DNA from: Loxodes magnus
Taxonomy: Eukaryota > Ciliophora > Karyorelictea > Loxodida > Loxodidae
DNA: 64,000 nucleotides
Reading direction: 5' to 3'
NCBI GenBank assembly: GCA_946699065.1
Contig: CAMPDV010000312.1
Span: 248,001-312,000, forward strand
Under the pieces are notes generated by a model, which had not been told where the DNA came from, did not search any database, and worked only from the letters and a program-made list of their open reading frames with translations. Below, in pieces: positions 1 through 64,000 of the stretch. Position 1 is the first letter of the stretch, and each line of letters begins with the position of its first letter. The translations under genes were made by a program, and so were the position numbers.

Positions 1-3000
1 TGGATATAGCCACAGATCATACATAACTAGTGTGACCACTCATGGTCTTACAGGTACCTGTCTTGACGTCCCATAGTCTCACCGTCTAATCTGCACTTCC
101 CGATACGATGAACTCTGAATCACTGGATATAGCCACAGATAATACCTAATTAGTGTGACCACTCATGGTCTTACAGGTACCTGTCTTGACGTCCCATAGT
201 CTCACCGTCTAATCTGCACTTCCCGATACGATGAACTCTGAATCACTGGATATAGCCACAGCAGATACATAACTAGTGTGACCACTCATGGTCTTACAGG
301 TACCTGTCTTGACATCCCATAGTCTCACCGTATAATCATAACTTCCCGATACGATGAACTCTGAATCACTGGATATGGCCACAGATAATACCTAATTAGT
401 GTGACCACTCATGGTCTTACAAGTACCTGTCTTGACGTCCCATAGTCTCACCGTATAATCATAACTTCCCGATACGATGAACTCTGAATCACTGGATATA
501 GCCACAGATAATACCTAATTAGTGTGACCACTCATGGTCTTACAGGTACCTGTCTTGACATCCCATAGTCTCACCGTCTAATCTGCACTTCCCGATACGA
601 TGAACTCTGAATCACTGGATATAGCCACAGATAATACCTGATTAGTGTGACCACTCATGGTCTTACAAGTACCTGTCTTGACGTCCCATAGTCTCACCGT
701 ATAATCATAACTTCCCGATACGATGAACTCTGAATCACTGGATATGGCCACAGATAATACCTAATTAGTGTGACCACTCATGGTCTTACAGGTACCTGTC
801 TTGACATCCCATAGTCTCACCGTATAATCATAACTTCTCGATACGATGAACTCTGAATCACTGGATATAACCACAGCAGATACATAACTAGTGTGACCAC
901 TCATGGTCTTACAAGTACCTGTCTTGACGTCCCATAGTCTCACCGTATAATCATAACTTCCCGATACGATGAACTCTGAATCACTGGATATAGCCAAAGC
1001 AGATACATAACTAGTGTGACCACTCATGGTCTTACAGGTACCTGTCTTGACATCCCATAGTCTCACCGTATAATCATAACTTCTCGATACGATGAACTCT
1101 GAATCACTGGATATGGCCACAGATAATACCTAATTAGTGTGACCACTCATGGTCTTACAAGTACCTGTCTTGACGTCCCATAGTCTCACCGTATAATCAT
1201 AACTTCCCGATACGATGAACTCTGAATCACTGGATATAGCCACAGCAGATACATAACTAGTGTGACCACTCATGGTCTTACAGGTACCTGTCTTGACGTC
1301 CCATAGTCTCACCGTCTAATCTGCACTTCCCAATACGATGAACTCTGAATCACTGGATATGGCCACAGATAATACCTAATTAGTGTGACCACTCATGGTC
1401 TTACAAGTACCTGTCTTGACGTCCCATAGTCTCACCGTCTAATCTGCACTTCCCGATACGATGAACTCTGAATCACTGGATATGGCCACAGATAATACCT
1501 AATTAGTGTGACCACTCATGGTCTTACAGGTACCTGTCTTGACATCCCATAGTCTCACCGTATAATCATAACTTCTCGATACGATGAACTCTGAATCACT
1601 GGATATAGCCACAGCAGATACATAACTAGTGTGACCACTCATGGTCTTACAAGTACCTGTCTTGACGTCCCATAGTCTCACCGTCTAATCTGCACTTCCC
1701 AATACGATGAACTCTGAATCACTGGATATGGCCACAGATAATACCTAATTAGTGTGACCACTCATGGTCTTACAAGTACCTGTCTTGACGTCCCATAGTC
1801 TCACCGTATAATCTCTACTTCCCGATACGATGAACTCTGAATCACTGGATATAGCCACAGCAGATGGATAATTAGTGTGACCACTCATGGTCTTACAAGT
1901 ACCTGTCTTGACATCCCATAGTCTCACCGTCTAATCTGCACTTCCCGATACGATGAACTCTGAATCACTGGATATAGCCACAGATAATACCTAATTAGTG
2001 TGACCACTCATGGTCTTACAGGTACCTGTCTTGACATCCCATAGTCTCACCGTATAATCATAACTTCTCGATACGATGAACTCTGAATCACTGGATATAG
2101 CCACAGCAGATACATAACTAGTGTGACCACTCATGGTCTTACAAGTACCTGTCTTGACATCCCATAGTCTCACCGTATAATCTGCACTTCCCGATACGAT
2201 GAACTCTGAATCACTGGATATAGCCACAGCAGATGGATAATTAGTGTGACCACTCATGGTCTTACAAGTACCTGTCTTGACGTCCCATAGTCTCACCGTC
2301 TAATCTGCACTTCCCAATACGATGAACTCTGAATCACTGGATATAGCCACAGCAGATACATAACTAGTGTGACCACTCATGGTCTTACAAGTACCTGTCT
2401 TGACGTCCCATAGTCTCACCGTCTAATCTGCACTTCCCGATACGATGAACTCTGAATCACTGGATATAGCCACAGCAGATGGATAATTAGTGTGACCACT
2501 CATGGTCTTACAGGTACCTGTCTTGACATCCCATAGTCTCACCGTCTAATCTGCACTTCCCGATACGATGAACTCTGAATCACTGGATATAGCCACAGCA
2601 GATACATAACTAGTGTGACCACTCATGGTCTTACAAGTACCTGTCTTGACGTCCCATAGTCTCACCGTATAATCATAACTTCTCGATACGATGAACTCTG
2701 AATCACTGGATATAGCCACAGCAGATGGATAATTAGTGTGACCACTCATGGTCTTACAGGTACCTGTCTTGACATCCCATAGTCTCACCGTCTAATCTCC
2801 ACTTCCCGATACGATGAACTCTGAATCACTGGATATGGCCACAGCAGATACATAACTAGTGTGACCACTCATGGTCTTACAGGTACCTGTCTTGACGTCC
2901 CATAGTCTCACCGTATAATCATAACTTCCCGATACGATGAACTCTGAATCACTGGATATAGCCACAGCAGATACATAACTAGTGTGACCACTCATGGTCT

Positions 3001-64000: not shown

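Follow-up and report, generated by a model that had tools for sequence, protein, structure and literature searches.

The 64,000-nt stretch of DNA that we analyzed (here called the window) is very probably part of a ~336-kb WD40 array in the MAC genome of Loxodes magnus, in which UAG encodes Gln, certain columns of the repeat diversify, and the units derive from a gene family through the runaway expansion of one gene. Three observations carry this reading: the genetic code, the columns in which the units vary, and the family that the array shares with shorter genes. That TAG encodes Gln was itself already known for karyorelicts (NCBI table 27), so the assignment leaves the catalogue of genetic codes unchanged. 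The potentially new element is the gene family, which comprises dozens of genes built alike (81 scored matches, some of them perhaps alleles).

Layout of the array and the columns that hold TAG

The whole window is a single unbroken array on the minus strand, made of ~520 copies of a 123-bp (41-residue) WD40 unit. It lies on contig C312 (360,915 bp); the genome searched comprises 705,730,643 bases (705.7 Mb) in 7,843 contigs. The array spans 335,832 bp (~336 kb), from a terminal TGA at about C312:25,084 to the right end of the contig, and we read 275,832 bp (~276 kb) of it as a sample of 25 stretches of C312, window included. G+C content was 25 to 27% in two 10-kb stretches at the left end of the contig and 43 to 45% in the array stretches. 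Just downstream of the array end, C312:21,600-24,600 (stretch L115) holds broken reverse-transcriptase-like frames, of LINE type by eye. We numbered the columns of the unit so that VRLWD begins column 1; columns 5 and 25 of an earlier model-made reading of the window (the sequence-only reading) are columns 20 and 40 here. The features of the window are as follows.

1..43336, minus strand: longest clean WD40 run, ~352 units that share a frame and are free of indels
17..19, minus strand: in-frame TGA in column 22, Trp by table 27
3338..3340, minus strand: in-frame TGA in column 22, Trp by table 27
39377..40237, minus strand: seven-unit segment used for structure prediction from single sequence with TAG as Gln (all-beta; mean pLDDT 93.5, pTM 0.91)
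40238..40240, minus strand: in-frame TGA in column 22, Trp by table 27
43379..58761, minus strand: part of the array with 14 odd-length intervals (frameshifts), found from unit-interval lengths
58677..63999, minus strand: in-frame stretch of the array at the window's right edge, containing the eight-unit sample of the sequence-only reading
60661..61649, minus strand: that eight-unit sample, with 5 TAGs in each of two columns

The sequence-only reading had confined TAG to two columns, and this held: all 547 in-frame TAGs in the 503 exact window units fell in column 20 (244) or column 40 (303). Its count of five TAGs per column in the eight units at 60,661-61,649 was the same when we repeated it. 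TAA was absent from the 503 units, and TGA occurred three times, twice in column 22 and once in column 1. Over the wider array, 1382 of 1393 TAGs were in columns 20 and 40 among 2137 exact units, a set that includes 3 units from a neighboring gene and omits those of stretch L115 and 53 of the 2190 intervals (50 of odd length, 3 long). The statement that all other codons are conserved describes most of the remaining columns, which are nearly constant, but not columns 38, 22, 19, and 23, which vary strongly. AAG and AAT do occur at column 40, as had been reported, but the window has just 2 units of each among its 503, and they become common only when the wider array is counted (258 and 188, respectively, of 2137). 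It is important to note that the hundreds of in-frame TAGs are real but that the units are copies, so the TAGs of the window are not independent events.

Between positions 1 and 43,336, the window is open throughout when TAR is read as Gln and TGA as Trp. This run extends over ~14,445 codons and reaches the window edge, and its only stop codons other than TAG are the three TGAs listed above, each in variable column 22. The frame does not continue through the whole window: of 516 unit intervals, 14 have a length other than 123 bp, and every one of these lies between 43,379 and 58,761. Many of these odd intervals are unique one-base changes and may be assembly errors. In the clean run, units were ~94% identical at lags of 1 to 40 (348 units), and the same 348 units carried 23 distinct base variants outside the variable columns with no indel, which weakly suggests that the frame has been conserved. 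The prediction scores of the seven-unit segment make seven window units a plausible propeller. We found no tRNA genes within the window, and single-strand DNA folding of one unit showed no excess over shuffles (z, −0.41).

TAT is the other major codon in both TAG columns (1148 units in column 20 and 924 in column 40, of 2137), which would favor reading TAG as Tyr, as in Mesodinium. The haplotypes speak against this. The sequence-only reading had counted about 23 units with CAG in a TAG background, and CAG indeed occupies column 20 in 23 of the 503 exact window units; 12 of them are 1 nt and 11 are 2 nt from the nearest TAG unit, and all are at least 6 nt from any TAT unit. TAT therefore sits on a different haplotype, as had been claimed, and CAG shares the haplotype of TAG.

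The genetic code outside the array

We found two closely similar eRF1 genes ~35 kb apart (C196:19,713 and C196:54,613). Each encodes 436 residues and terminates in TGA; they contain 7 and 6 TAGs, 13 and 15 TAAs, and no internal TGA. Copy one was aligned, with X at every TAR codon, to a solved eukaryotic eRF1 (PDB 4d5n, which we take to be the human protein), and residues were counted from the alignment. Its seven TAGs face A, K, E, Q, S, T, and Q (Gln in 2/7), and 7 of its 13 TAAs face Gln. One of the two Gln-facing TAG sites is TAA in the second copy, and the two copies exchange CAA and TAA at residue 69. A third eRF1_1 match, at C2:1,762,690, scored higher than both C196 copies. In the two C196 genes, the TASNIKS motif reads RAQNIKS and YxCxxxF reads FxCxxxF.

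A mitochondrial-type HSP70 gene contains 11 TAGs and 17 TAAs; in its alignment to PDB 9qid, which is loose near the C terminus, 5 of the 11 TAGs and 6 of the 17 TAAs stand at Gln and none at Tyr; one of the other TAGs faces D. A family search for HSP70 gave 68 matches, many of them near-identical tandem copies, of which 33 cover at least 590 of 599 positions. Each of these 33 has 4 to 11 TAGs and 11 to 33 TAAs, with no TGA in 32 and two in one; the ranges leave out the 35 matches with <590 positions, several of which have decayed. The HSP70 genes on C45, C86, and C854 form tandem arrays of near-identical copies; the C854 copies are among the decayed genes and contain as many as 6 TGAs. TAG was present in all 29 chaperonin matches (totals of 105 TAG, 278 TAA, and 2 TGA in 22 near-full-length matches and of 31 TAG, 49 TAA, and 5 TGA in 7 partial ones). 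In the gene family treated in the next section, 9 of 10 genes have TGA at the Trp position of the C-terminal RI-W-N motif, in a WD40 repeat, and the remaining one is frameshifted at that point. A pattern search for 18S returned 71 sites, and one locus (C177) was confirmed as 18S and 5.8S.

As judged from these sequences, UAG is Gln in this genome, UAA is also Gln, and UGA is Trp inside genes. Aligning conserved genes for in-frame TAG, as the sequence-only reading had proposed, put 7 of 18 TAGs (eRF1 and one HSP70) at Gln and 0 of 18 at Tyr. With this count, and with CAG on the TAG haplotype, we rejected Tyr as the meaning of TAG and consider its probability negligible; TAG is a sense codon in the Mesodinium-type code as well, but there it is Tyr (TAR = Tyr) and here Gln. 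The reassignment to Gln was called correctly and holds outside the array in the eRF1, HSP70, and chaperonin matches, but it was drawn too narrowly. TAG is not the only reassigned codon: with TAA likewise Gln and TGA decoded as Trp within genes, the genome follows the karyorelict code already described as NCBI table 27. A genome in which TAG stands only at gene ends outside the array, the pattern that would speak against the reassignment, is not what we found: in-frame TAGs occur in eRF1, HSP70, the chaperonins, and the family genes. The TAG of the array is therefore a glutamine codon.

According to the L. magnus genome paper, the MAC assembly of 706 Mbp includes 231 Mbp of low-complexity tandem repeats and follows table 27, in which TAA and TAG are Gln and TGA is Trp or stop (PMC11441545). 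For the karyorelict Parduczia sp., UAA = Q, UAG = Q, and UGA = W are given in another report (PMC4967479). Compared with table 27, this genome has the same TAA and TAG as Gln and TGA as Trp inside genes, TGA is the stop at the two gene ends seen (eRF1), and we found no difference. In the nuclear code, UAA and UAG are decoded as Gln, whereas UGA is decoded as Trp within genes and would serve as the only stop, close to the end of the mRNA. These results bear on the idea that the array is a noncoding satellite, an amplified fragment of WD40 junk whose TAGs are fossil stops in a standard-code genome. Its code part is refuted by TAG and TAA as sense codons in eRF1, HSP70, the chaperonins, and the family genes, and as a whole we regard it as extremely improbable.

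The sequence-only reading had also predicted a tRNA with a CUA anticodon, for which our limited searches (three patterns and one BLAST query) gave no confirmation. Two patterns had no match in the genome, and the third had three matches that are not clear CUA tRNAs. All three were called as tRNA by ARAGORN and Rfam; in two, the anticodon loop has six bases and no anticodon was assigned, and the other was called as Arg(UCU). We take all three to be Lys-like. The tRNA genes at L141 and L142 (C353 and C1844) have a six-base anticodon loop, one base short. BLAST with a Tetrahymena tRNA-Gln(CUA) query, run with no positive control and hence uninformative, returned no match. According to the Parduczia report, a UUA tRNA is able to read UAG by wobble (PMC4967479), and the absence of tRNA(CUA) from limited searches is thus not decisive.

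A gene family with RING-like, pentapeptide, and WD40 parts

The array shares its repeat with a gene on the same contig.

C312:17,511 down to ~15,000: neighboring family gene with a RING-like N terminus, a Gln-rich middle, pentapeptide repeats, and seven WD40 stretches

The array type of repeat accounts for four of the WD40 stretches of this gene. The pentapeptide repeats in its head scored 23.3 bits against a Pfam cut-off of 20.2. The Cys/His spacing of the head looks RING-like by eye, and the RING-like match scored far below the Pfam cut-offs (zf-RING_UBOX, 11.2 bits with a cut-off of 25.2; zf-RING_2, 11.1 bits with a cut-off of 27.3), whereas a RING E3 ligase is recognized by a RING finger over the curated cut-off. 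When the 500-residue head of one gene was scanned with Pfam, no NACHT or HET domain was found.

A genome search with the 537-residue head yielded 5,345 first-look candidates and 81 scored matches; some of the 81 are perhaps alleles on separate contigs. Each of the 81 has 9 to 22 TAGs, 40 to 53 TAAs, and 0 to 2 TGAs. We read the WD40 domains of 10 of these 81 copies, the C312 gene and nine others, of which the one on C409 is frameshifted. By sequence, the RING-like N terminus of the family is followed by a long Gln-rich region, pentapeptide repeats, and a WD40 domain. That domain has about seven repeats, and in most cases 4 to 5 of these are near-identical. In 5 of the 10 genes, TAG stands at column 20 or 40 and is followed in frame by the conserved C terminus. 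TAG at the same columns of short, ordinary genes is the strongest link between the array and the family.

Heads tend to lie near contig ends with the C terminus facing the end; within 50 kb of the contig start were 40 of 49 minus-strand heads versus 10 of 32 plus-strand heads. No telomere repeat was seen in the first 110 bases of 12 contigs, so the subtelomeric place of the family genes is one that we infer. By eye, C312:1-400 and the starts of C1198, C43, C417, and C202 carry a similar A+T-rich satellite of ~80 bp near family genes.

Two of three units tested from the neighboring C312 gene were identical to array units. Among 25 exact units from eight other loci, none had a variable-column haplotype found in the array as read. 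This argues against the array as a blade archive that serves as donor for the whole family, an idea that gained no support from these eight loci; any reservoir could only be local. The expanded gene, as far as sequence likeness goes, is probably a sister of the neighboring C312 gene.

Other WD40 repeats occur in this genome. A further family of WD40 repeats, on C1503 (read as L081 and L085 of stretches L081-L088), is built from a 126-bp unit (SIAISPDQKWIVSAS...KVWDFQTGSCLRT). These units have in-frame TGA, Trp by table 27, at variable positions, and both in-frame and shifted parts occur. A whole-genome search gave 99,026 first-look WD40 candidates, of which 150 were scored; the scored ones lie on C9, C119, C272, C620, C1503, C1832, C6957, and other contigs. 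WD40-coding repeats may make up a sizeable part of the tandem repeats of the genome.

The best PDB relative of the repeat is 2ymu, and the best rows in a collection of bacterial and archaeal genomes are from Calothrix and Nostoc at 52 to 55% identity. Bacterial and cyanobacterial WD40 proteins (2ymu, Nostoc) are thus the closest sequence relatives among those searched. These bacterial relatives presumably use the standard code. Unlike the Loxodes family, relatives on bacterial plasmids are annotated with other partner domains (NB-ARC, caspase). In the open-licence PMC literature, we found no Loxodes WD40 family described, and a search there for ciliate with WD40, RING, and pentapeptide found only a paper on peroxisome proteins; none of the further papers listed has such a family in its title or the opening lines of its abstract.

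Variable columns and the origin of the array

The most variable of the 41 columns over the 2137 units were 38, 40, 22, and 20, followed by 19 and 23. In the family genes, where we counted exact 123-bp units only (28 units from nine loci; C202 gave none), the order was 38, 22, 40, 19, 23, and 20, with column 20 sixth; beyond the variable columns, these 28 units hardly differ. Across the seven columns with the most variation (19-23, 38, and 40), only 1 of 23 single-step variants is synonymous, with 26% expected. This deficit (binomial P = 0.008; Fisher P = 0.022 against the other columns) is to be read with the variable columns having been picked on the same data as tested and with expectations that assume transitions to be twice as frequent as transversions. 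By analogy with the fungal receptors discussed below, columns 20, 22, 38, and 40 are presumed to be diversifying specificity positions, probably located on the surface. TAG would be found only in columns 20 and 40 because both are among these four presumed specificity columns, which admit many residues, including Gln; Gln is hardly used outside the specificity columns. Since the TAG columns diversify and the units are copied, the hundreds of TAGs represent a few diversification states, amplified.

Outside the variable columns, 22 variants are synonymous and 59 are not (22/81, or 27%, versus 25.5% expected), which is neutral by number. Mean diversity there was 0.036 at third positions, 0.013 at first positions, and 0.011 at second positions. 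With third-position diversity ~3 times that at the first and second positions, the commoner variants lean to synonymous, some sign of past purifying selection and an argument against pure neutrality. The same numbers divide over the satellite: neutrality by number and the amplification of frameshift units (one 1-base deletion in 25 units) agree with it, whereas the threefold excess at third positions does not. A satellite without fossil stops is possible for most of the array.

The same array could instead be one giant gene, with all ~336 kb encoding one polypeptide tens of thousands of residues long. The array contains no dedicated stop under table 27, positions 1-43,336 of the window are open without an indel, and the array closes in a TGA at about C312:25,084. 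This agrees with a giant gene but is set against the 1-base deletion amplified in 25 units, odd-length units spread over several stretches (53 of 2190 intervals depart from 123 bp), and variation that is mostly neutral outside the variable columns. No head lies upstream of the array on C312, because the array reaches the contig end. The L. magnus authors suspect misassembly of low-complexity repeats (PMC11441545). We therefore consider a single giant gene highly improbable. The amplification of units with a shifted frame, together with largely neutral variation elsewhere than in the variable columns, suggests a runaway expansion of one gene's repeats rather than one giant protein. Under our preferred reading of the window as runaway repeat expansion, one family gene would have expanded beside a paralogue that kept few repeats.

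The variable columns invite comparison with fungal WD40 receptors. An alignment on the GH motif to a Podospora unit of assumed sequence puts columns 20, 22, 38, and 40 on Podospora codons 7, 9, 25, and 27. In Podospora HNWD, positive selection is reported for codon pairs 7/9 and 25/27, which map to the interaction face of the WD40 propeller (PMC2873952), and the HNWD/NWD receptors (HET-E, HET-D, and HET-R) have WD40 repeats of high internal conservation (PMC2873952, PMC12222747). The two systems share near-identical WD40 units, four diverse positions with a common spacing of 2/16/2, and changes in the variable columns that almost all alter the amino acid. High internal conservation in such receptors means WD40 repeats with >80% identity within a gene, and the clean run has ~94%. 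The systems differ in that the Loxodes head scanned has no NACHT or HET domain and instead combines RING-like and pentapeptide parts, and in that one Loxodes array has grown to thousands of units.

From this analogy, we infer that unequal exchange would homogenize the WD40 blades while selection diversifies the surface columns, as in the fungal HNWD receptors. The family may then consist of intracellular recognition proteins for variable partners, with the RING-like head as their output. More speculatively, and in our estimate unlikely as a whole, Loxodes may have a large intracellular recognition family that is the counterpart of HNWD with a different head. The same four positions would diversify with the help of the code, in which TAG, TAA, and TGA place Gln and Trp one step away from Tyr, Lys, Ser, and Leu codons, and arrays like that of the window would either be expressed as giant variants or supply blades locally to neighboring genes.

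If this is true, it would be a convergent recognition system, diversified at the four positions of HNWD, in a lineage for which we found none described. Our results also suggest that a reassigned stop codon can pass for decay where copies are amplified and that the tandem repeats treated as low-complexity sequence in this genome would include protein-coding repeats.
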